Positions 4,161 to 14,889 of a DNA stretch of 38,372 nt are shown here, piece by piece. The notes beneath the pieces are model-generated. The model saw nothing but the letters and a program-made list of their open reading frames with translations. It was not told where the DNA came from and did no database searches. The stretch spans positions 1 through 38,372 of the forward strand of contig NZ_JANKOF010000039.1 in assembly GCF_024655565.1 (NCBI RefSeq). Direction: 5' to 3'. A program made the position numbers and the translations under genes. Position 1 is the first letter of the stretch. Every line of letters begins with the position of its first letter. This DNA is from Nitratireductor sp. ZSWI3 (GTDB taxonomy: Bacteria; Pseudomonadota; Alphaproteobacteria; Rhizobiales; Rhizobiaceae).

Positions 4161-4300
4161 CTGTCCCTCCTACCTTCGCCCCGATGCCGCTGGCCGCAAT
4201 CCGGGGAGGTCGTGTGAGTCGTTGTTAGCCAGCACATCGACCACCTTAAATATCAACGCAAGCTCGTAAAGCCCGAACGGGGCACAACCGTGCCGTATGC

Positions 4301-4336
4301 TTGACCCTATCCTATGGAGGAGGATAGGATTAAACG
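4301..4336 (+). promoter_or_regulatory. Promoter with CsoR/RcnR-type operator in the spacer
   Basis: A TTGACC box (4301-4306) and a TAGGAT box (4325-4330), 18 bases apart, fit a sigma-70 type promoter. The spacer and the -10 box contain a perfect inverted repeat, ATCCTAT (4309-4315) and ATAGGAT (4324-4330), around the G-rich core GGAGGAGG. An inverted repeat flanking a G-tract is the operator layout known for RcnR/FrmR/DmeR-type repressors. The predicted transcription start falls on or next to the ATG at 4337, so the message may be leaderless. The role is inferred from position. Confidence 0.7.
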
Positions 4337-4612
4337 ATGAGCGAGCACCGTCATTCATCCCATCCGGGCATCGTCAAGCGGCTGCGGCGGGCCGAGGGGC
4401 ATCTGCGCAGCGTCGTTGCCATGATCGAGGCCGGGAAGCCCTGCCTCGATATCGCTCAGCAGTTGCATGCGGTGGAGAAGGCGGTGGCGCAGGCCAAGCG
4501 GACGCTCATCCACGATCACCTCGACCATTGCCTGGAGGAGACGGTCGGGCCGCTCTCCCGGCAGAAGCGCGAGACGGTGAGCGAGTTCAAGGAAATCGCG
4601 AAGTATCTGTGA
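4337..4612 (+). CDS. Metal-sensing repressor, CsoR/RcnR (DUF156) family
   Basis: A 91-residue all-helical repressor of the CsoR/RcnR/FrmR family. Apo-protein binds DNA as a tetramer and releases it when metal is bound. The coordinating pattern C36-H61-C65 is visible, the same spacing as Cu(I)-sensing CsoR of Mycobacterium. An N-terminal His cluster (H4, H6, H9) could provide the fourth ligand, as in the nickel sensor InrS or in RcnR/NreA-type proteins. The conserved RLRRAEGH DNA-contact segment lies at residues 15-22. Its stop overlaps the start of the downstream exporter (TGATG), so the two are one operon. The exporter's His-rich tail favours nickel or cobalt over copper, but this is not settled. 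No good Shine-Dalgarno sits at normal distance; the GGAGGAGG 13 bases upstream is better explained as operator core. Confidence 0.93.
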   Translation: MSEHRHSSHPGIVKRLRRAEGHLRSVVAMIEAGKPCLDIAQQLHAVEKAVAQAKRTLIHDHLDHCLEETVGPLSRQKRETVSEFKEIAKYL

Positions 4613-5919
4613 TGCTGGCCATCCTCGCCGACCGCACCTATCGCCACCTGTTTGCGGCCCAGATCATCGCGCTGGTCGGCACCGGCCTGGCGACGGTCGC
4701 GCTGGGTCTGCTCGCCTACGACCTGACGGGCGAGCGGGCCGGGGCCGTGCTCGGCACCGCCCTGGCGATCAAGATGGTCGCCTATGTGGGTGTGGCCCCG
4801 ATTGCCTCCGCGTTTGCCGAGCGGGTCCGGCGGCGGGTGATGCTCGTCGCCCTCGATCTCGTCCGGGCGGGCGTCGCCGTGTTCCTGCCCTTCGTGACGG
4901 AGGTGTGGCAGGTCTATTGCCTGATCTTCGTGCTGCAGGCGGCATCGGCCGCCTTCACACCGGCCTTCCAGGCGACGATCCCCGACGTGCTGCCGGACGA
5001 GAAGGATTATACGCGGGCGCTGTCGCTCTCGCGCCTCGCCTATGATCTGGAGAGCGTCGTCAGCCCGATGCTGGCGGCGGCGCTGCTGACCCTCGTTTCC
5101 TTCCACAACCTGTTTGCCGGCACGGTCATCGGCTTCCTCGCTTCCGCCGCCCTGGTGCTGACGGTGGCGCTGCCGAGCCCGAAACCCTCCAGGCCCCGCG
5201 GCATCTACGATCGCATGACGCGCGGCATCCGCATCTATCTCGCCACGCCGCGCCTGCGCGGGCTGCTCGCCGTCAACCTCGCCGTCGCGGCGGCGGGGGC
5301 GATGGTCATCGTCAACACCGTCGTCTACGTGCAGGCCGCCTTCGCGCTCGGCGAAAGGGCGACGGCCATCGCGCTCATGTCTTTCGGCGGCGGCTCCATG
5401 GTCGCCGCGCTGATGCTGCCGGGGCTGCTCGAGAAGATCCCGGACAGAACAGCCGTGCTGACGGGCGCAGCGCTACTCGGCGCCGGCACGCTGGCGGCCG
5501 TGGCGCTCGATGCCTACTACGTGCTTTTGCCGCTGTGGTTTCTGCTCGGCCTCGGATACTCCCTGGCGCAGACACCGTCCGGGCGCCTCCTGCGCCGGTC
5601 CTCGAACCCCGAAGACCGCCCCGCCCTCTTTGCCGCCCAGTTCGCCCTGTCCCATGCATGCTGGCTGGTCACCTATCCGCTGGCCGGATGGGTGGGGGCG
5701 GCCTTCGGACTGCCGGCAGCGGCCATCATCCTGGCGCTGCTCGCCGCCGTCGCCATCGGCTTCGCGCTCCTCGTCTGGCCCGTCGAAGATCCCGAGATCA
5801 TCGAGCACGCCCACGACGACCTGCCCGAGGACCACCCGCATCTCGGCGGCTCCCGCCGGCGCCACGCGCATGCCTTCGTCATAGACGATCTGCACACCGG
5901 CTGGCCGGAAAGGAAGTGA
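4612..5919 (+). CDS. MFS exporter with His-rich C-terminus, NreB/NrsD-like metal efflux
   Basis: A 435-residue major facilitator protein with about 12 membrane helices. The start is the ATG at 4612, overlapping the repressor stop. The open frame runs further upstream, but only through the repressor gene in another frame. The N-terminal half has typical MFS features, including the FAERVRRRVML loop at the motif A position between helices 2 and 3. The tail of about 40 residues is hydrophilic and rich in His and Asp/Glu (EHAHDD, EDHPHLGG, RRRHAHAF), resembling the metal-binding tails of nickel exporters NreB and NrsD. Together with the cotranscribed metal sensor this suggests Ni(II) or Co(II) efflux. 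Without the tail and neighbour it would only be called a generic enterobactin-exporter-like MFS protein. Confidence 0.88.
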   Translation: MLAILADRTYRHLFAAQIIALVGTGLATVALGLLAYDLTGERAGAVLGTALAIKMVAYVGVAPIASAFAERVRRRVMLVALDLVRAGVAVFLPFVTEVWQVYCLIFVLQAASAAFTPAFQATIPDVLPDEKDYTRALSLSRLAYDLESVVSPMLAAALLTLVSFHNLFAGTVIGFLASAALVLTVALPSPKPSRPRGIYDRMTRGIRIYLATPRLRGLLAVNLAVAAAGAMVIVNTVVYVQAAFALGERATAIALMSFGGGSMVAALMLPGLLEKIPDRTAVLTGAALLGAGTLAAVALDAYYVLLPLWFLLGLGYSLAQTPSGRLLRRSSNPEDRPALFAAQFALSHACWLVTYPLAGWVGAAFGLPAAAIILALLAAVAIGFALLVWPVEDPEIIEHAHDDLPEDHPHLGGSRRRHAHAFVIDDLHTGWPERK

Positions 5920-6013: not shown

Positions 6014-7012
6014 ATGGAGACGCGGGACCTTCAGACTTTTCTGGCCGTTGCCGAGACCGGGAGCATCACCAAAGCGGCGGTGCTTCTGGAGCGCTCGCAG
6101 CCTTCGGTCACGCGGACCATCCAGGAGCTCGAGGCCAAGCTGGGCTTTTCGCTTCTGCAGCGTGCCGGGCGACGGGTGATGCTTTCCGACGAAGGCGTGG
6201 CTTTCGAGGAAGAGGCGCGCCGTGTGCTGAATTCCCTTTCCGGCCTGGCGGCGCGGGCCCGCGCCATCGCAGCGGGCAAGGGCCGCACGCTGCACGTGGC
6301 CGCGACCTCGGCGATCGCCACCGGACTCATTCCCGCCGCACTGGCCGAGTTTGCCGCCGAAAAGCTGCCGGCCGAGATCCAGATCGCGCAATATCTGCCG
6401 AACATGGTCGCGCAGGAGGTGGGGTCCGGCGGCGCGGAGATCGGCTTTTCCAGCATGCCGCTCGACGTGCCGGGGCTGGACGTGGTGCGGCTCTACCGGG
6501 CCAATGACGTGGCCGCCCTGCCCGAGGGCGACCCGCTCGCCGAGCACGACGTCGTGCCGCTTTCGGCCTTTGCCGGACGGCGGTTCGTGACCATGCTCGA
6601 CCCGGGCCGCTTCCAGCGCCAGGTCTCGCAGATCATGGAAGCAAAGGGCGTTCGCCCCGGTCCCCTGATCCGCACCAACGTGTCCTATTCCGCGCTGCGC
6701 CTCGTCCAAAAGACCGGTGTCGTGTCGATCATCGATCCCGTCAGCGCCTATGGGGTCACCCTGCCGGGCGTGGTGATCCGGCCGATCGATGTCGCCGTGC
6801 CCTTCTATTGGGGCGCCGTCGCCACCGCCGCGCGGCCGCTGCGGCCCCTCGCCGCGCAACTGATCGAGGAAGTGGAGAAGGAGGCGCTGCGCCTCATTCC
6901 CGATCTCGAGATACTCGACCCCGCCCGCAACGTTCAGGCGAGGGACCGGCAGGCATCCGCGGCGGCGCGGAGCCCGTCGAGCAACCAGGCGCATCATCGA
7001 GGATCAGCATGA
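6014..7012 (+). CDS. LysR-family transcriptional regulator
   Basis: A 332-residue LysR regulator. The N-terminal winged helix-turn-helix is clear (residues 1-60: LQTFLAVAETGSITKAA, then SQPSVTRTIQELEAKLG). It is followed by a linker helix and a periplasmic-binding-protein-like effector domain. The ATG at 6014 follows an AT-rich leader, and an inverted repeat ATCCAT/ATGGAT lies at 5961-5983. It is co-directional with, and overlaps by ATGA, the downstream monooxygenase gene, so it appears to be the first gene of the catabolic operon. This is unusual, since LysR genes often diverge from their target. It probably senses the substrate of the encoded pathway. The C-terminal ~30 residues are polar and probably disordered. 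Confidence 0.94.
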   Translation: METRDLQTFLAVAETGSITKAAVLLERSQPSVTRTIQELEAKLGFSLLQRAGRRVMLSDEGVAFEEEARRVLNSLSGLAARARAIAAGKGRTLHVAATSAIATGLIPAALAEFAAEKLPAEIQIAQYLPNMVAQEVGSGGAEIGFSSMPLDVPGLDVVRLYRANDVAALPEGDPLAEHDVVPLSAFAGRRFVTMLDPGRFQRQVSQIMEAKGVRPGPLIRTNVSYSALRLVQKTGVVSIIDPVSAYGVTLPGVVIRPIDVAVPFYWGAVATAARPLRPLAAQLIEEVEKEALRLIPDLEILDPARNVQARDRQASAAARSPSSNQAHHRGSA

Positions 7013-8520
7013 CCTGTCAGTTCCGCCCCGCCCCCGGCGCCGCGCAAGGCCTGGATGCCCTGGCCGCCCGCATCCGTTTCGACCTCGAATGCCTCAACCT
7101 GCCGCCGGCCAACTGGGTGCCGGAGCGGCGCAGCGCGTCGGGCGAAAAGATACACGACGTCGTGATCATCGGCGGCGGCATGTGCGGCCTGGTGGCGGCC
7201 TTCGCGCTGAGGACCGGCGGAATACACAATATGCGCATCTTCGACCGCAGCCCTAAGGGGCGTGAGGGTCCGTGGCTCACCTATGCCAGGATGGAGACGC
7301 TGCGGTCGCCCAAGACGCTGCCGGGCCCCGCCTACGGCATGGGGCCCCTCACCTTCCGCGCCTGGTATGAGGCGCAGCACGGGCCGGAGGCCTGGGAAGC
7401 GCTCGACAAGATCCCCCGCCCGATGTGGATGGACTACCTCGTCTGGTACCGCAAGGTGCTCGGCCTGCCGGTGGAGAACGAGGTCGAGGTCAGGAGCGTC
7501 ACCCCGGAGGGCGGTTGCCTGCGGCTCGAACTGGGCGGCGCCGGCGCGAAGGAAAGCTCGGTGCTGACGCGCAAATTCGTCATGGCGACGGGGCGCGACG
7601 GGACGGGTCATCCGAACATTCCGGATTTCGCCGCAGGCCTGCCCAAGCACCTGTGGGCGCACTCCTCCGAGGACATCGACTTTTCCACCCTCAAGGGCAA
7701 GCGCGTCGTCGTCGTCGGTGTCGGCGCCTCGGCGGTCGACAATTCGGCGGAGGCGCTCGAGGCCGGCGCAAAGGAAGTGCGCCATCTGATCCGCCGCCGG
7801 CAGATGCCGACCATCAACAAGATGATGGGCATCGGCTCCTTCGGCTTCACCGCCGGCTATGCCGAGCTGCCGGACGAGTGGCGCTGGCGCTTCATGCAAT
7901 ATTCCTTCGCCACGCAGACCCCTTCGCCGCGCGGCTCGACCCTGCGGGTCAGCCGGCACGAGAATGCCTTCTTCCATTTCGGCGAGGGAATCGCACGGCT
8001 GCGTCACGAGGGCGACGAGGTGGTCGTCGAAACCACCACCGGAAAGACGCTGCACTCGGACTTTCTCATCCTCGGCACCGGCTTCACCGTCGATCCCCTG
8101 GCGCGCGCCGAGCTCGGCAGTGCGGCGGGCGAGATCCTCCTGTGGGGCGACCGCTATACGCCGCCCGAGGGAGAAGAGAGCCCGGAACTGGCGAACTTTC
8201 CCTATCTCAACGCCGATTTCTCGTTTCGCGAGCGCCGCCCCGGCCGGGCGCCGTGGCTCGCCGACATCTACTGCTTCAACTACGGCGCCTCGGCCAGCCT
8301 CGGCAAGGTCTCCGGAGACATCCCGGGGATCAGCGAAGGCGCCCGATGGCTCGCCTACGCGCTTGCGGCCAAGCTCTACCGGGAGGATGTCGAGCGCCAT
8401 TGGCAGGGGATGCTCGACTACGACAAGCCGGAACTGCTCGGTGACGAGTGGACGGAAACCGAACTCGAGGACAGCGCGGGCGCGGCTGTTGCCGAGCGGG
8501 CCTATCAGATCGGGAGCTGA
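7009..8520 (+). CDS. FAD/NAD(P)-dependent flavin monooxygenase (FMO/BVMO-like)
   Basis: A 503-residue flavoprotein. A first dinucleotide-binding motif, DVVIIGGGMCG, lies at residues 50-60 (FAD). A second, RVVVVGVGASA, follows near residue 231 (NADPH), and an LGTGF motif lies in the C-terminal third. This is the layout of flavin-containing and Baeyer-Villiger monooxygenases. Between the two nucleotide sites the usual FxGxxxHxxx(W/Y) fingerprint is degenerate: GLPKHLWAH, with His in place of Trp/Tyr. The enzyme may thus be an N-hydroxylating or otherwise divergent member. The start ATG at 7009 overlaps the LysR stop and has GGA just upstream; a longer in-frame extension runs back inside the LysR gene and is rejected. 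Its operon partners suggest that it oxidises an imported amine or amino-acid conjugate. Confidence 0.88.
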   Translation: MTCQFRPAPGAAQGLDALAARIRFDLECLNLPPANWVPERRSASGEKIHDVVIIGGGMCGLVAAFALRTGGIHNMRIFDRSPKGREGPWLTYARMETLRSPKTLPGPAYGMGPLTFRAWYEAQHGPEAWEALDKIPRPMWMDYLVWYRKVLGLPVENEVEVRSVTPEGGCLRLELGGAGAKESSVLTRKFVMATGRDGTGHPNIPDFAAGLPKHLWAHSSEDIDFSTLKGKRVVVVGVGASAVDNSAEALEAGAKEVRHLIRRRQMPTINKMMGIGSFGFTAGYAELPDEWRWRFMQYSFATQTPSPRGSTLRVSRHENAFFHFGEGIARLRHEGDEVVVETTTGKTLHSDFLILGTGFTVDPLARAELGSAAGEILLWGDRYTPPEGEESPELANFPYLNADFSFRERRPGRAPWLADIYCFNYGASASLGKVSGDIPGISEGARWLAYALAAKLYREDVERHWQGMLDYDKPELLGDEWTETELEDSAGAAVAERAYQIGS

Positions 8521-8528
8521 ACAAGGGC

Positions 8529-9035
8529 ATGAGTGAACTTTCGCCGAACGACGTCGTGATAACGCAGGCAGATGCGGCAGGCAGCGGCCCGGTCCGCGAT
8601 GCGCTGGAAGGCCGCGTCGACATCATGGCCATGACGCAGGCAACCCACGATGCCGCCCTCAGGCCGGCTGACCCCGGCGGGCTCTCGCACGGCGAACGGG
8701 CCGCGCTCGCCGCCCGCATCGCGCGTCTCAACGCCGATGAGGGCCTCGCCGCGCACTACGCGGCGCTGCTCGAGGAAGCGGGCGCCGACGAAGCGGTTTC
8801 GGCGATGGCCGATCCTGCCCACAAGGGCGGCGGCGATGCCCGGCGCGCCGCGCTGATCGCCTACACGGACCTGGTGTCGGTGCACCCGCGCGACACGGCC
8901 GCGGCCGACATCGAGGCGCTGAAGAGCGCCGGTATCTCGGACGCGGACATCGTGCGCCTCTCCGAGCTCAACGCATTCCTGGCCTACCAGATCCGCGTGA
9001 TCGCCGGCCTCAAGCTTATGAAGGCGACGGCATGA
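8529..9035 (+). CDS. CMD-domain protein, Avi_7170-like, without cysteines
   Basis: A 168-residue protein of the carboxymuconolactone decarboxylase/AhpD fold class, similar in layout to the family named after Agrobacterium vitis Avi_7170. It is helical. The C-terminal part (SDADIVRLSELNAFLAYQIRVIAGLKLM) matches the last helices of AhpD-like proteins. It has no cysteine at all, so it lacks the CxxC peroxidase centre. The start is the ATG at 8529, 8 bases after the monooxygenase stop; the open frame extends upstream into that gene and was not used. Its stop overlaps the next start (ATGA), so the two proteins are probably made together and may form a heteromer in which this subunit is structural. 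Family assignment is from memory of the pairing with the Avi_7169 type. Confidence 0.75.
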   Translation: MSELSPNDVVITQADAAGSGPVRDALEGRVDIMAMTQATHDAALRPADPGGLSHGERAALAARIARLNADEGLAAHYAALLEEAGADEAVSAMADPAHKGGGDARRAALIAYTDLVSVHPRDTAAADIEALKSAGISDADIVRLSELNAFLAYQIRVIAGLKLMKATA

Positions 9036-9610
9036 GCACCATCATCCACGAATTCACCACTAAGATCCCCCATTGGCGCCCGCGCGTCCAGCCGATCAAG
9101 CTCGACGAGGCGACGCCCGAGCAGCTCGACGCCCTCAAGGTGACGCCGTCCAACACCAAGGTTTCCGACTACGTCCTGGTGCTCGCCAACGATGTCGAGA
9201 CGCTCAAGGTGCGCACGCCGCTCTTCAACGCGATCATGTACAATCGCGGCGGCATGGGACGGGCCGAACGCGAGCTGAGCGCGGTCGGCGCCTCGGTTGT
9301 CAATCATTGCATCTATTGCACGGCGGTCCATGCGAGCCGCTACAACCAGCTCGCCAAGGACGAAGAGGTCATGCGCCGCATATTCGCCGATGGCGAGGAT
9401 GCGGAACTCGACGAGCGCAAGAAGGCGATCTTCACCTTCGCAGCGAAGCTCTCCAAGGCGCCGAGCGAGGCGACCGAGGAGGACATGCGGGCATTGCGTG
9501 CGGCAGGTCTGAAGGACGACGAGTTGCTCGACCTCATTCTCTCGGCCGCGTTGTTCGGCTGGGCCAACCGTTTGATGCACACGCTGGGCGACCCGGTGGT
9601 CGAGGATTGA
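9032..9610 (+). CDS. Alkylhydroperoxidase-like (AhpD/CMD) protein, Avi_7169-like
   Basis: A 192-residue AhpD-superfamily protein with the catalytic signature C93-xx-C96-xxx-H100 (NHCIYCTAVH). It therefore has an intact redox-active dithiol and proton-relay His. It resembles the peroxidase-related family named after Avi_7169, whose genes accompany the Avi_7170-type partner encoded just upstream. The ATG at 9032 overlaps the upstream stop. In the AhpD family the thiol pair reduces peroxides or reacts with acyl/lactone substrates. Beside a flavin monooxygenase it could detoxify peroxide leaked by that enzyme or process its product. The physiological substrate is unknown. Confidence 0.87.
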   Translation: MSTIIHEFTTKIPHWRPRVQPIKLDEATPEQLDALKVTPSNTKVSDYVLVLANDVETLKVRTPLFNAIMYNRGGMGRAERELSAVGASVVNHCIYCTAVHASRYNQLAKDEEVMRRIFADGEDAELDERKKAIFTFAAKLSKAPSEATEEDMRALRAAGLKDDELLDLILSAALFGWANRLMHTLGDPVVED

Positions 9611-9653
9611 TGAACGAGGTTCGGAGTAAGGCGTTTTGCGTAAGGGGGACAGC

Positions 9654-10745
9654 ATGCGTGTTGGCATAGTCGGGGCAGGAGCCATCGCCTTCGGGGTTGC
9701 GGCGTTTCTCGAGCAATCGGGCCACCGGCCGGTCCTGTGGTCGCCCTCCGGCGCCCGCACCGGGAGGCTGGCCGCCGGCGAACCGCTCGTTGCGAGCGGC
9801 GCCGTCGAAGGCTCCTTCCATCCCGGCGTCGCACGATCGGCCGAGGAACTGGTCGCCGGTGCCGACGTGGTTCTCCTCGCCCTGCCCGGCTACGGGCACA
9901 AGCATGCCTTTGATGCGATCGCCCCGCATATCCGCCCCGGCCAGGCGGTGATCATCTCCTCGCACGCCTCGTTCGGCGCGCTCTATCTTTCGCGCCTGCT
10001 GGCCGCGCGCGGCATCACCATACCCATCGTCGCCTGGGGGACGACGGCCGTCACCGGCCGCCAGCCGAGCCTTACGGAGGTCAACGTCAACACGGTGCGC
10101 AGCAAGATCGACCTGTGCACCGTGCCGGAGCGGCTTTCCGACGAGGGCCTCGCGCTCTGCCAGAGCCTGTTCGGCGACCGCTTCGTCCAGCGCGACGGGC
10201 TGCTCGCCATCGCGCTCAGCAATCTCAACCCGCAAAACCACATGGGCATCGCGCTCTGCAACATGACCCGCATGGAGCATGGCGAAAGCTGGAGCCAGGG
10301 CTTCAACGTGACGCCCAATGTGGGACGGCTGCTCGAAGCGCTCGACCGCGAGCGGCTCGCCATCGCCGAGGCGCTCGGCCTGTCCGTGCGCACCATTTTC
10401 GAGCACTTCCACCTCTCCTTCCACGTGCCGCAGGATACGGTGTCGAACATGAACCTGGCGATGCACGAGGAAGGCCGCGGCGGCACGGGGCCGGCCACGG
10501 CCGACAGCCGCTATGTCACCGAGGACGTCCCCTATGGCCTGCTGATGACGGTCAGGCTCGGCGAGCTGACGGGCCGTGAGGCGAAGCTGCACCGGGCCGG
10601 CGTCGAGACGTTTTCGGCGATGTATGGGCGCGACTTCTTCGCCGAAAACGAGCTTCTGGACGCGCTGGCGATCGACGGCATGACGCTCGAGGAGCTCAAA
10701 ACCCTGTCGCGCGAGGGCTATCGCGCCGAAAAACTGCCGGCCTGA
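9654..10745 (+). CDS. NAD/NADP octopine/nopaline dehydrogenase family protein
   Basis: A 363-residue oxidoreductase. The N-terminal Rossmann motif VGIVGAGAIAFG starts at residue 3. The C-terminal half carries the octopine/nopaline dehydrogenase domain with the conserved N195-H196 (NPQNHMGIALCN), the His expected to act in catalysis. Family members join an amino acid and an alpha-keto acid reductively, or oxidise the resulting opine back. The ATG at 9654 has AGGGGG 6 bases upstream, so it is preferred over an upstream TTG at 9636. It sits 43 bases after the AhpD-like gene and before an ABC importer, a context that favours breakdown of an opine-like N-(carboxyalkyl) amino acid. Ketopantoate-reductase-like functions cannot be excluded. 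Confidence 0.88.
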   Translation: MRVGIVGAGAIAFGVAAFLEQSGHRPVLWSPSGARTGRLAAGEPLVASGAVEGSFHPGVARSAEELVAGADVVLLALPGYGHKHAFDAIAPHIRPGQAVIISSHASFGALYLSRLLAARGITIPIVAWGTTAVTGRQPSLTEVNVNTVRSKIDLCTVPERLSDEGLALCQSLFGDRFVQRDGLLAIALSNLNPQNHMGIALCNMTRMEHGESWSQGFNVTPNVGRLLEALDRERLAIAEALGLSVRTIFEHFHLSFHVPQDTVSNMNLAMHEEGRGGTGPATADSRYVTEDVPYGLLMTVRLGELTGREAKLHRAGVETFSAMYGRDFFAENELLDALAIDGMTLEELKTLSREGYRAEKLPA

Positions 10746-10840
10746 CCGCCGGAACGCCTGACGAAAGGGCCGCAAAGATCCCTGCCGAACGAAATGCATG
10801 ACATGATGAACGTACCGGAACCGAAAGAGGGATAACCGCC

Positions 10841-11950
10841 ATGAGCAAACTCATCATCAATCGCAGACATCTCCTCAAGACGGGCGCAGCCGGTGCCGGC
10901 CTGCTTGCCGCCCCCGCATATCTGCGCTCGACCGCCGCCCGTGCCGCGGGCGTCGTCAACGTGTGGACCTATGCCAACTTCATCCCCGACGACTTCAAGG
11001 CCGAATTCGAGAAGGACACAGGCATCCAGATCCAGATCCGGCTGGTCGACGACCAGGGCAAGCAGTTCAACCTGCTCGCCGCGGAAGCACCCAACCCGTC
11101 CACCGACATCGTCACCGTGGCCGGCCACCGCTTCCTGCAGTTCATCTCCTCGGACCTTCTGGCACCGCTCGACACCGACCGCCTGAAGAACTGGGGCAAC
11201 ATCAACCCGGTCTATTCCGAGAGCGACTGGGCGACGATCGACGGCAACAAATGGGGTGCGCCGATCCTGTCGGGCGCGGAGATCCTCGCCTACAACACCG
11301 AGGTCGTCGGCGAGGACGAGGTGAAGAGCTGGGACGTGCTCTTCTCCGACAAATACTCCGGCCAGACCGCCTACACGATCCAGGACATGATGTCCGTCGT
11401 CATGCTGTACAAGGGCTATGACGGAAACATGGTCGCCTATATGGACGATCCGGCAAAGGCAGCCGCGGTCGTCAAGGAAGCGCGCGACTTCCTGATCGAG
11501 AAGAAGCCGCTGGTGCGCAAATACTACGACGCCGGCGCCGAGGTCCAGCAGATGTTCATCAACCAGGACATCGTGCTCGCCCATGCCTGGAACGGGCCGA
11601 TCGCCAAGCTGATCACCGACGGCTTCCCGGTCGACATGACCATTCCGAAGGAAGGCACATACGGCTTCGTCTACACGCTGAACGTCACCAACAACGCCCC
11701 CAATGCCGACAACGCCTACACCTTGCTCGACGCGCTCCTGGCGAATCCGCAGGTGGGCGCGAAGATGACCCAGTCGTCCGGCTTCATCTCCACCTACAAG
11801 GGCGCCGACCAGTATCTGTCCGACATCGAGAAGAAGGCCTCCTCCTTCACCGAGGAGGAACTGGCGGGGCTGCAGTTCTTCCGGGCCGAGGCCAATGAGA
11901 TGAAGTACAAGCTCGTCGATCCCGCGGTCGAGGAAATCAAGGCCGCCTGA
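10841..11950 (+). CDS. ABC solute-binding protein, spermidine/putrescine (PotD) type, Tat-exported
   Basis: A 369-residue periplasmic binding protein. The N-terminus NRRHLLKTGAAGAG (twin Arg at 8-9) is a Tat signal, followed by cleavage near residue 34 (ARA). Export in folded form by Tat is common for this subfamily in rhizobia. The mature part begins VNVWTYANFIPDDF and follows the PotD/extracellular solute-binding family pattern. Homologues bind polyamines, opines such as mannopine, or related cationic amines. The GAGGG 9 bases before the ATG at 10841 supports the start. A stem-loop directly downstream separates it from the permease genes and may raise its expression above them. Ligand identity is open; the neighbouring opine-dehydrogenase-like gene makes an opine-like ligand plausible. 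Confidence 0.93.
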   Translation: MSKLIINRRHLLKTGAAGAGLLAAPAYLRSTAARAAGVVNVWTYANFIPDDFKAEFEKDTGIQIQIRLVDDQGKQFNLLAAEAPNPSTDIVTVAGHRFLQFISSDLLAPLDTDRLKNWGNINPVYSESDWATIDGNKWGAPILSGAEILAYNTEVVGEDEVKSWDVLFSDKYSGQTAYTIQDMMSVVMLYKGYDGNMVAYMDDPAKAAAVVKEARDFLIEKKPLVRKYYDAGAEVQQMFINQDIVLAHAWNGPIAKLITDGFPVDMTIPKEGTYGFVYTLNVTNNAPNADNAYTLLDALLANPQVGAKMTQSSGFISTYKGADQYLSDIEKKASSFTEEELAGLQFFRAEANEMKYKLVDPAVEEIKAA

Positions 11951-11968
11951 CGGCGAAACGACGGCGAA

Positions 11969-12001
11969 CCGGACGGGCGGGGATCCTCCCCGGCCGTCCG
12001 G
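11969..12001 (+). promoter_or_regulatory. Stem-loop between binding-protein and permease genes
   Basis: CCGGACGG (11969-11976) pairs with CCGTCCGG (11994-12001), and inside it GGGG (11979-11982) pairs with CCCC (11988-11991) around a 5-base loop. It lies 18 bases after the binding-protein stop, on the same transcript. Such structures protect the upstream mRNA or attenuate read-through, giving an excess of binding protein over membrane subunits. Confidence 0.6.
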
Positions 12002-12029
12002 CCTATCGAGACAGGACAGGCGATCCCCC

Positions 12030-13016
12030 ATGGCCCATGCGGACTCCGAAACTGCAAACCTGGCGAAGGCGGCCGCCCCGGGCGGCAGGCCGACCTTCTG
12101 GGGCGCGCTGCTGCAGAACGGCGCCTACCAGGCGATATCCGGCACGCTGTTCAAGACGCCGCGCCGGCAATTCGTGCTCCTGGCGAGCCTGCCGCTGTTC
12201 TGGGTCTTCTTTGCCAATCTCGGCCCCATCATCGAGATGTTCTGGATCGGCTTTCTCGATTCCTACCCGCCGAAGGTCGGCTATCAGCCGCAGTTCACGC
12301 TCGCCAACTGGGCGGCCTTTTTCCAGGACCGGGTGTTCATCATCCCGTTCTTCCGGACCCTGGCCTACTCCTTCACATTCACCACGATCACGCTGTTGAT
12401 CACCTATCCGGTCGCCTATTTCCTGGCCAAGCACGTGAAGCGCGGACACCAGCTCCTGTTCCTGCTTCTGCTGCTGATCCCGTTCTGGGTGGGCGAGATC
12501 GTGCGCACCTATGCGATCATGATCCTGCTCGGCAACAACGGCGCGGTGAACCTGGCGCTCAAATCGCTCGGCCTGATCGAGCGCCCCATCCCGTTCATGT
12601 ACACCGGGTTCTCGCTGGGCGTCGGCATCATCTACCTGACGGCGCTCTACATGCTGCTGCCGCTATATTCGGCGCTGGAGAAGATCCCCGACAACTATCT
12701 CGAGGCCGCCGCCGATCTGGGCGCCGGCGCGTGGACGCGCTTCCGCCGCGTCACGCTGCCTTTGTCGAGGGAGGGCATCGCCTCGGGCTGCACGCTCGTC
12801 TTCCTGATCTCGACCGGCTACTACGCCACGCCGGTGTTGCTCGGCGGGCCGCGCTCGACGGTCTTTGCCGAAACCATCGCCGGCTTCTTCCACGTCGCCG
12901 GCGATCAGTGGCCCATGGGCGCAGCCTTCTCCTCCATCATGCTGATCGCCACGCTGGCTCTGACGGGACTCTTCCTCAAGCTGATGGGCCGTGACGGGAA
13001 AGGAATGATGCGATGA
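12030..13016 (+). CDS. ABC transporter permease, PotB type
   Basis: A 328-residue inner-membrane permease. It has a long polar N-terminus of about 50 residues and then about six membrane helices. The EAA loop that docks the ATPase is visible: LEAAADLGAGAWTRFRRVTLPLS, with the conserved Gly. This is the first of a PotB/PotC pair. The last bases overlap the next permease gene by ATGA, showing translational coupling. The start ATG at 12030 follows a purine-rich stretch. It works with the PotD-type binding protein and the PotA-type ATPase of this operon. Confidence 0.94.
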   Translation: MAHADSETANLAKAAAPGGRPTFWGALLQNGAYQAISGTLFKTPRRQFVLLASLPLFWVFFANLGPIIEMFWIGFLDSYPPKVGYQPQFTLANWAAFFQDRVFIIPFFRTLAYSFTFTTITLLITYPVAYFLAKHVKRGHQLLFLLLLLIPFWVGEIVRTYAIMILLGNNGAVNLALKSLGLIERPIPFMYTGFSLGVGIIYLTALYMLLPLYSALEKIPDNYLEAAADLGAGAWTRFRRVTLPLSREGIASGCTLVFLISTGYYATPVLLGGPRSTVFAETIAGFFHVAGDQWPMGAAFSSIMLIATLALTGLFLKLMGRDGKGMMR

Positions 13017-13798
13017 CCCGCCACACGCGCATCCTGATGTCGATCATCTACTGGGCCTTCGTCGCCTACCTCTTCGTGCCGCTGGCGCTGATGGTGACGA
13101 TGGGCTTCAAGGATTCCAAGTTCATCGGCTTTCCGATCCGCTCCTGGACCTTCGACTGGTACATCGCCGTCGCGCAGGACACGCAGGTGCTTGCCGTGTT
13201 CGGCTACTCGATGGCGATCGCCATCTCGACCACGGTGCTGTCGCTGATCATCGGCACGTGGATGGCGGCCTTTCTCGGGCCCAACACCTTCCGCGGCAAG
13301 GCGATCATCTTCGCGCTGGCCTGCCTGCCCGCCGTCATTCCCGGCATCATCTCGGCCATCGCGCTGCGCATCTTCGCCAGGCTGATCGACATCGAGCCCG
13401 GCATGATGGCCATCATCCTCGGCCACACGGTGCACAACGTGCCCTTCGTGGCGCTGGTGGTGATGGCGCGGCTGTCGACCCAGCCGAAGAGCCACATCGA
13501 GGCGGCGCGCGACCTCGGCGCCGACAGCATCGTCGCCTTCTTCCGCGTGACGCTGCCCTATCTGAAGCCGGCGCTGATCGGCGCCGGCATCTTCTGCATG
13601 CTGCTCTCCTTCGACGATTTCGTGCGCGCCTTCTTCCTCGGCGGCTACCAGCCGACCCTGCCGGTGCTGATCTTCGCCAAGCTGCGCTCGGGCATGTCGC
13701 CGGAGATCAACGCCATCTCGACCATCGTCCTCATCATGACCGCGATCCTCGGCCTGTGGGCCGAGCGTTCCATGCGGCGCTTGAACAAAGGCTCCTGA
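13013..13798 (+). CDS. ABC transporter permease, PotC type
   Basis: A 261-residue inner-membrane permease, the usual PotC length, with about six membrane helices. The EAA loop IEAARDLGADSIVAFFRVTLPYLKP is intact. It overlaps the upstream permease by 4 bases, and the ATPase gene starts 2 bases after its stop, so all three are one translation-coupled unit. It forms the heterodimeric membrane channel with the preceding gene product. Confidence 0.94.
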   Translation: MTRHTRILMSIIYWAFVAYLFVPLALMVTMGFKDSKFIGFPIRSWTFDWYIAVAQDTQVLAVFGYSMAIAISTTVLSLIIGTWMAAFLGPNTFRGKAIIFALACLPAVIPGIISAIALRIFARLIDIEPGMMAIILGHTVHNVPFVALVVMARLSTQPKSHIEAARDLGADSIVAFFRVTLPYLKPALIGAGIFCMLLSFDDFVRAFFLGGYQPTLPVLIFAKLRSGMSPEINAISTIVLIMTAILGLWAERSMRRLNKGS

Positions 13799-13800
13799 CC

Positions 13801-14889
13801 ATGACCGGCGAAAAGGACACCATCGTCCACATCGACAACGTCACCAAACGCTTCGGCAGCGTCGTCGCCGTCGACCGGCTGGACATGAAGATCGTGGCCG
13901 GCGAGTTCGTCACCTTCCTCGGCCCGTCCGGCTGCGGCAAATCGACGACGCTGCGCATGCTCGGCGGCTTCGAGACCCCCGACGAAGGCCGCATCGTCCT
14001 CGACGGCGCCGACGTGACCCGCCAGCCGCCCAACCGGCGCGACGTCAACATGGTGTTCCAGGATTATGCGCTGTTCCCGCACATGACGGTCGGCCAGAAC
14101 GTCGCCTTCGGGCTGGAGCTGAAAGGCAAGTCGCGCGCCGAGATCGACCGCCGCACCGGCGAATTGCTTGAGTTCCTGCAGCTTTCCGGCTTCCGCAACC
14201 GCACGCCGGAGCAGCTTTCCGGCGGCCAGCGGCAGCGCGTGGCGCTGGCCCGGGCGCTGGCCCCCGATCCCAAGCTGCTCCTGCTCGACGAGCCGCTCGG
14301 CGCGCTCGACGCCAAGTTGCGCGGCCAGGTGCAGATCGAGCTCAAGGACATCCAGAAGCGCACCGGCAAGACGTTCTTCTTCGTCACCCACGACCAGGAA
14401 GAGGCGCTGACCATGTCGGATCGCATCGTCGTCATGAACGCCGGCAGGGTGGAACAGGCCGGCACGCCGGAGGACCTCTATTTCCGTCCGGAGAGCCGTT
14501 TCGTGGCCGAGTTCATCGGCGAGACCAACCTCATCGAAGGCACGGTGCGCGGCATCGACAGGGACGCGATCGTCATCGACTGGAACGGCATGGCCGTGCG
14601 CGGCGCGGCGCATGGCCGCCAGCCGGCCGCGGGCGAGGCCGTGACCGCCTCGCTGCGGCTCGAGAACGTCACCTGCCATCCGAAGAAGCCTACCAGGGAA
14701 GACGCCATAGAGGGACGCGTCGTCAACAAGCTGTTCAAGGGCAGCCGCACCTCCCTCGATATCCGCATCGGCGAGGGCCGGGACACGCTCATCCGCGCCT
14801 ATATGGACGCGGGCAACGCCGCCAGCATCGACGACGATCAGCTGTGGATCAGCTGGGAGGCCGACCGGCTGGCGGTGCTGCGGGACTGA
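13801..14889 (+). CDS. ABC transporter ATP-binding protein, PotA/MalK type
   Basis: A 362-residue ATPase. Walker A GPSGCGKST (about residues 41-49), the Q-loop (VFQDYALFPHMT), the signature LSGGQRQRVALARAL, Walker B LLLLDEPLGALD and the switch His (FFVTHDQ) are all intact. The last ~120 residues form a TOBE-type regulatory domain, as in polyamine and sugar importers. The start ATG at 13801 comes 2 bases after the permease stop; the long upstream frame extension is a shadow of the permease gene. Its 3' end overlaps the 3' end of the convergent kinase gene by 41 bases, and no terminator could fit between them. Confidence 0.96.
   Translation: MTGEKDTIVHIDNVTKRFGSVVAVDRLDMKIVAGEFVTFLGPSGCGKSTTLRMLGGFETPDEGRIVLDGADVTRQPPNRRDVNMVFQDYALFPHMTVGQNVAFGLELKGKSRAEIDRRTGELLEFLQLSGFRNRTPEQLSGGQRQRVALARALAPDPKLLLLDEPLGALDAKLRGQVQIELKDIQKRTGKTFFFVTHDQEEALTMSDRIVVMNAGRVEQAGTPEDLYFRPESRFVAEFIGETNLIEGTVRGIDRDAIVIDWNGMAVRGAAHGRQPAAGEAVTASLRLENVTCHPKKPTREDAIEGRVVNKLFKGSRTSLDIRIGEGRDTLIRAYMDAGNAASIDDDQLWISWEADRLAVLRD

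Follow-up and report, generated by a model that had tools for sequence, protein, structure and literature searches.

The stretch analyzed here comprises 38,372 nucleotides of Nitratireductor sp. ZSWI3 (contig NZ_JANKOF010000039.1, positions 1–38,372; hereafter the window) and carries, at positions 6014–14889, nine plus-strand genes encoding a LysR-family regulator, a flavoprotein monooxygenase (FMO), a CMD-AhpD protein pair, an opine-dehydrogenase-family enzyme (ODH) and a Pot-type ABC importer. A preliminary description of this sequence had proposed nine co-directional genes separated by ATGA overlaps or by gaps of less than 100 bases, with the regulator in first position and coupled to the monooxygenase. 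This layout was borne out: three junctions are ATGA overlaps, including that between the regulator gene and the FMO start, and the remaining gaps are 2–95 bases. The features are listed below in order.

6014–7012, plus strand: LysR-family regulator, first gene of the operon (HTH_1 and LysR_substrate domains); ATGA overlap with the FMO start
7009–8520, plus strand: FMO, FAD/NAD(P)H-type (class-B-like) flavoprotein monooxygenase (Pyr_redox_3)
8529–9035, plus strand: CMD-fold protein without conserved cysteine (TIGR04029-like, just under the cut-off); 8-bp gap after FMO
9032–9610, plus strand: AhpD-like peroxidase-related protein with CxxCxxxH (TIGR01926, over the cut-off); ATGA overlap with CMD
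9654–10745, plus strand: ODH, NAD(P)-dependent opine-dehydrogenase-family enzyme (Octopine_DH); 43-bp gap after AhpD
10841–11950, plus strand: PotD/PotF-type periplasmic binding protein (SBP_bac_8); 95-bp gap after ODH
11970–12000, plus strand: strong hairpin in the spacer between the binding protein and the first permease (folding of the spacer against shuffles)
12030–13016, plus strand: PotB-type permease (BPD_transp_1); 79-bp gap after the binding protein
13013–13798, plus strand: PotC-type permease (BPD_transp_1); ATGA overlap with the PotB-type permease
13801–14889, plus strand: PotA-type ABC ATPase, last gene of the operon (TIGR01187, 359.4 bits against a cut-off of 355.6); 2-bp gap

Domain searches of the CMD and ODH proteins used translations with one extra codon in front. 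The same nine genes are found in the same order, LysR position included, on a plasmid of Nitratireductor rhodophyticola (locus L031). On five other annotated plasmids the importer precedes the FMO, and the regulator is of the XRE or LysR family.

Distribution of the operon

A scan of named genomes confirmed 481 FMO relatives, of which the best 80 were kept, and the survey thus leans to close relatives; genes were called present at identity thresholds of our choosing. FMO, CMD and AhpD genes lie in that order on one strand in 79 of the 80 loci, the exception (L139) being a contig that ends just after the FMO. By contrast, CMD, AhpD, ODH, the binding protein and both permeases are each absent from 26 control loci around FMO paralogues 38–48% identical, where the ATPase query alone found matches (4/26). 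Rare co-occurrence of the enzymes and importer, which the preliminary description named as grounds for rejecting its proposal, is not what these loci show. One paralogue locus with a distant CMD-AhpD pair beside a TRAP gene (L071) was excluded from the control, which would otherwise stand at 1/27, and two loci with FMOs of 50–53% identity in which no CMD-AhpD pair was found (L069 and L070) fall outside the control set.

A Pot-type importer (at least three of the four Pot genes) is present at 62 of the 80 loci and a TRAP importer at 12; none has both. Of the six loci with neither importer, four (L107, L122, L139 and L148) come from contigs that are short or cut, which does not apply to the other two (L138 and L160). 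ODH accompanies the Pot importer in all 62 cases, as opposed to 2 of the 12 TRAP loci, and is consequently not obligatory at the FMO locus. In an FMO tree built from 71 of 126 rows (thinned by removing roughly half of the Pot rows and all but 12 paralogues; a quick method with SH-aLRT support only) the TRAP loci form one group with a support of 98, cut contig L107 included, nested within the Pot and ODH group. They belong to Halomonas, Vreelandella, some Rhodobacterales and a Salinarimonas.

Among 297 genomes of the same order as Nitratireductor, an FMO match at 1e-30 was found in 53 and one of at least 58% identity in 12, the window's own genome included. In each of these 12 genomes CMD and AhpD come after the FMO, and in nine of them ODH and Pot genes are at the FMO locus. 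In one of the others (G294) the ODH and Pot genes sit on a separate contig from the FMO, in another (G206) a more distant ODH lies beside a TRAP importer on a contig other than the FMO's, and in the last (G065) neither ODH nor Pot genes were seen at the FMO locus. ODH orthologues of at least 62% identity were detected in 10 of 295 same-order genomes, every one of which is among the 12 with the FMO. Holders of the module include Hyphomicrobiales, Rhodobacterales, Granulosicoccus and others, many of them soil and marine bacteria.

Judged by gene order and sequence similarity, the nine genes make up a genuine importer-oxygenase-dehydrogenase operon that is widely conserved and uncharacterised. 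Its predicted core is the oxygenase with CMD and AhpD, to which the importer and dehydrogenase are apparently exchangeable add-ons.

Several variants depart from this arrangement. Locus L140 has two ODH genes and, ahead of the FMO unit, genes for XRE, Kbl and Tdh; Kbl-Tdh occurs on either side of the FMO unit in several families, Tdh or Kbl being present at 13 of the 80 loci. Besides its TRAP gene and distant CMD-AhpD pair, paralogue locus L071 encodes a PALP-family pyridoxal phosphate (PLP) enzyme, a second FMO and a peptide-type ABC importer, and is perhaps another variant of the same importer-oxygenase logic. The neighbors of more distant FMOs (peptide-type ABC importers, hydrolases, an M24 peptidase) pointed to no substrate.

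Properties of the encoded proteins

The FMO matches Pyr_redox_3 and, over residues 135–265, part of Lys_Orn_oxgnase (PF13434), and has no match at E 0.001 to PF00743, which we take to be the classic FMO Pfam model. Two Rossmann motifs (G55, G57, G60 and G237, G239) are kept in at least 97% of 79 FMO rows. The best profile matches in the PDB were 4usr, 4c5o, 4a9w and 4usq. With a structural model of the FMO, in which domain packing was poor, the first 40 Foldseek rows were amine N-hydroxylases of the SidA/PvdA/DfoA kind, but in a structural comparison these were tied in Z with other enzymes. The modeled fold resembles class-B flavoprotein monooxygenases. Of the N- or C-oxygenation proposed in the preliminary description, action as an amine N-oxygenase can fairly be read from this fold but is not proved by it.

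The pairing of two AhpD-fold proteins after the FMO is conserved, but the two are not equivalent. CxxCxxxH is found in 79/79 AhpD-like rows, the window's included, whereas CMD rows lack a conserved cysteine and the CMD protein of the window contains no cysteine at all. The AhpD-like protein scores 201 bits against TIGR01926 (cut-off 81.8) and 156.3 against TIGR04030 (cut-off 233.15). Matches to the CMD protein are weak, with 96.5 bits for TIGR04029 (cut-off 100.75) and 20.6 for the Pfam CMD model (gathering score 23).

The ODH consists of Rossmann and Octopine_DH helical domains (PF02317, 117.9 bits against a gathering score of 30, E 4.9e-34). Its best solved relative is 1BG6, N-(1-D-carboxylethyl)-L-norvaline dehydrogenase, to which it aligns over nearly its full length (residues 5–348 of 363, E 4.9e-31). 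NLNPQNH and RYxxED motifs occur in 67/67 ODH rows, including that of the window, and hold the catalytic His and Asp of 1BG6 (H202 and D297); these positions are kept in the window protein. On sequence grounds, the enzyme is a member of the opine dehydrogenase family with its catalytic motifs intact and a predicted opine activity, in agreement with the preliminary assignment. In a tree of 51 rows, from which about half of the module ODHs were left out, those of the module group together (38 rows; support 81/92, hence not firm) close to Ti-plasmid odh, one of their nearest relatives outside the module, with nopaline synthase far off on a long branch. Distant ODHs (39–49%) lie beside the same TRAP family in four genomes (L094–L097); in L095, L096 and L097 an ODH of about 40% directly follows the TRAP importer, and in L095 a D-glutamate cyclase-like protein comes next.

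All four components of the Pot-type ABC importer expected from the preliminary description were found: binding protein, two permeases and PotA-type ATPase. The binding protein has a PotD/F-type fold and a possible Tat signal, the Pfam match to which is below its gathering score. The presence of two unrelated importers, Pot and TRAP, before the same enzymes suggests one class of solute for both. TRAP carriers of this kind usually take carboxylates; the solved structures of TRAP binding proteins were not close enough to point to a ligand. Agropine- and mannopine-binding proteins were absent from the fold matches of the Pot-type binding protein, an absence that carries no weight.

The hairpin at 11970–12000 lies in the 79-nt spacer downstream of the binding protein gene, which folds with a z of -2.16 (5 of 200 shuffles equally good); hairpins are often found at this position in operons that overproduce their binding protein. 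Elsewhere in the window, no link to the operon was seen among the other genes examined (ten open reading frames by Pfam, three without a match). Upstream, positions 4297–5919 encode a major facilitator superfamily (MFS) carrier with a His-rich tail. A 91-aa open reading frame (4337–4612) inside its called start presumably resembles a CsoR/RcnR-type metal regulator, which suggests metal efflux and a true start of the carrier gene further downstream.

Possible substrates and chemistry

Of several readings the best, which we favor tentatively, is that the operon imports an opine-like compound or a related amino-acid derivative and breaks it down oxidatively; we infer both substrate and chemistry. 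Headed by its LysR regulator, the operon would form a self-contained catabolic unit. The importer would take up a small zwitterionic amine that also bears a carboxylate; an N-(carboxyalkyl) amino acid of opine type, or some related amino-acid derivative, is the likeliest candidate. Using NAD(P)H and O2, the flavoprotein may then oxygenate this compound, with the nitrogen or an adjacent atom as the most probable site. The oxygenated product or its peroxide would be processed by the CMD-AhpD pair, and the ODH would oxidize (or reversibly reduce) a C–N bond to release an amino acid together with a keto acid. The exchange of Pot for TRAP importers is expected under this scheme if both carry similar solutes. 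Also counted in its favor are the conserved core order, the constant pairing of ODH with the Pot importer, the intact ODH motifs, the altered pocket of the binding protein, the Foldseek rank of the N-hydroxylases and the co-regulation of the Sinorhizobium meliloti counterparts.

Catabolism of sulfur amino acids is an unlikely alternative in which the FMO would S-oxygenate a compound resembling an S-substituted cysteine, a PLP lyase of cysteine-desulfurase-like type would cleave its C–S bond and the CMD-AhpD pair would handle the sulfenate or persulfide. The main support is a class-V PLP enzyme (conserved RGGCxCAGxYxH, 40 rows), often just upstream of the FMO, which is within the fetched stretch at 42/80 loci (35% identity threshold; 35/80 at 45%) versus 0/26 controls. 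It is also present in 6 of the 12 genomes with the FMO module versus 35 of 283 others, a co-occurrence test that pools separate draws of 297 and 295 genomes. An AsnC regulator (41/80 loci versus 1/26 controls) and the CxxC of AhpD are consistent with sulfur chemistry, as is an HCCA-isomerase-like protein, presumably of DsbA-like fold, inside the C58 version and one other version of the module as well as beside an FMO paralogue (L074). However, the PLP gene is not beside the operon of the window, being on another contig (G000:C38), nor in seven plasmid loci (L031–L037); most of the 41/295 genomes encoding the enzyme are without the FMO module; and the ODH has no role in such a scheme. On its own contig in the window's genome (L205, about 10588–12021) the PLP enzyme adjoins an AsnC regulator, an MFS carrier and a second class-V aminotransferase, and its contexts elsewhere pointed to no substrate.

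It is improbable that the operon is a detoxification unit, with an oxygenase linked to the importer inactivating a toxic compound of plant or marine origin and a MATE or MFS carrier exporting intermediates. MFS carriers are found at 33/80 loci versus 0/26 controls, and MATE carriers at 8/80 loci and in annotated plasmid versions, but the MATE frequency is no different from that of the controls (p 0.2), neither carrier is in the window operon, and the presence of an importer at 74/80 loci suggests use rather than defense.

Uptake and breakdown of a polyamine or polyamine conjugate has a small probability in our estimation. In its favor, the binding protein, permeases and ATPase best match polyamine systems in profile and fold searches, and a Sinorhizobium meliloti operon with the same gene set, SMb20278–SMb20285, is reported as eight co-regulated genes under the influence of GlnD and labeled a putative polyamine uptake system (PMC3596328), with SMb20284 given among possible polyamine-uptake proteins in another paper (PMC3484140). 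The E185 position of PotF is still acidic in the window protein, and a new acid (D230) stands at PotF S226. On the other hand, the best-scoring polyamine models for the binding protein and permeases fall far below NCBIfam cut-offs, the ATPase alone passing one. The importers PotFGHI and PotABCD share the fold and subunit make-up of the window system, but where PotF has the acidic diamine contacts D39, E185, D247 and D278, the window protein has N46, D182, P253 and Y278 at these positions, keeping one acid of the four. The D247 position is Pro in 29/30 orthologues of the binding protein, the D278 position Tyr in 30/30, and the D39 position acidic in just 13/30. The aromatic cage is retained. 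A TRAP importer would moreover be an odd replacement for a diamine carrier. The polyamine conjugate entertained in the preliminary description as a substrate is thus made less likely by the loss of two acidic amine contacts.

We likewise give little credence to an ODH working reductively, in opine-type conjugate synthesis or keto acid recycling, with loose ties to the oxygenase: its absence from most TRAP loci and its divergent orientation or location on another contig in some genomes agree with a loose tie, but its presence at every Pot locus and beside importers in paralogous systems does not.

Comparison with known systems

The S. meliloti 1021 genes lie on pSymB and include an FMO 61% identical to that of the window, but unlike in the window the importer genes precede the FMO and the ODH is divergent. 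The SMb tags were assigned by gene order and content, the fetched record carrying no annotation. The preferred reading of the operon, breakdown of an imported amino-acid derivative, supplies a pathway that can be put to the test for a large conserved module whose current annotation, in this model symbiont as well, is piecemeal or polyamine uptake. In the literature searched, we found no paper joining an opine dehydrogenase, a flavin monooxygenase, CMD/AhpD and an ABC importer.

Ti-plasmid odh (nopaline and others) belongs to the same dehydrogenase family as the window ODH (about 47–50% identity) and lies in an opine-catabolic region. It adjoins a NoxABC-type gene set, arginase and ornithine cyclodeaminase, and no CMD/AhpD is annotated in the stretches examined. 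ODH relatives are near NoxABC-like gene sets on six plasmids examined, and in the nopaline region of pTiC58 odh is flanked by the arginase and ornithine cyclodeaminase genes. One Ti plasmid (L184, 8947–11629) has two adjoining annotated opine dehydrogenases, one grouping with odh and the other on the long branch of nopaline synthase. The relatedness of nos and odh is mentioned as unpublished data in one report (PMC6546132). The preliminary description had opines oxidized by oxidases or dehydrogenases. According to a paper on pTiEU6, the opine-cleaving enzyme of nopaline and succinamopine Ti plasmids is a flavin/2Fe-2S complex of NoxABC type, and odh is a gene whose role "has not been clarified as yet" (PMC6733357). 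Membership of the window operon in the noc-type catabolic operons was rejected, there being no 2Fe-2S or second flavin subunit (NoxA/B/C) among the nine genes. The comparison ties the unexplained Ti-plasmid odh to a wider family of importer-linked dehydrogenases.

Finally, the oxygenase-CMD-AhpD order with a nearby ABC importer recurs in the TIGR04027/TIGR04029/TIGR04030 cassette (KPN_01858-type monooxygenase, CMD Avi_7170, AhpD Avi_7169), on the last two families and proteins of which the literature searched yielded no paper. An AhpD exceeding the TIGR04030 cut-off was found in 4 of 199 genomes; in all four the CMD-AhpD pair comes after a TIGR04027-type monooxygenase, and a Liv-type importer adjoins downstream in three loci and upstream in one; the TIGR models were run on L235 only, the other three loci being matched by homology to it. 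In L235 (6953–13892) TIGR04027 luciferase-like monooxygenase, TIGR04029, TIGR04030 and the Liv-type importer form one run, and a genome with a match under the TIGR04030 cut-off (G050) has a CMD-AhpD pair with neither oxygenase in 19 kb. The window operon was not accepted as a member of this cassette: TIGR04027 is not among the 14 families listed for the window proteins, and the CMD and AhpD proteins score below the family cut-offs. The cassette oxygenase is FMN-dependent and luciferase-like, whereas that of the window is FAD class-B-like; the cassette has a Liv-type importer and no ODH match, whereas the window has an ODH between AhpD and a Pot importer. Because the CMD-AhpD pair accompanies two unrelated flavin oxygenases, the comparison singles it out as a recurrent partner of flavin monooxygenases and suggests that it acts on the oxygenation product or peroxide. 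A broader and more doubtful proposal is that CMD-AhpD could be a general partner of flavin monooxygenases of unrelated fold in importer-linked catabolism, and that the window operon could degrade secondary amines of opine-like type by an oxygenolytic route, one that is distinct from the NoxABC-type oxidases and has spread among bacteria of the sea and the rhizosphere.

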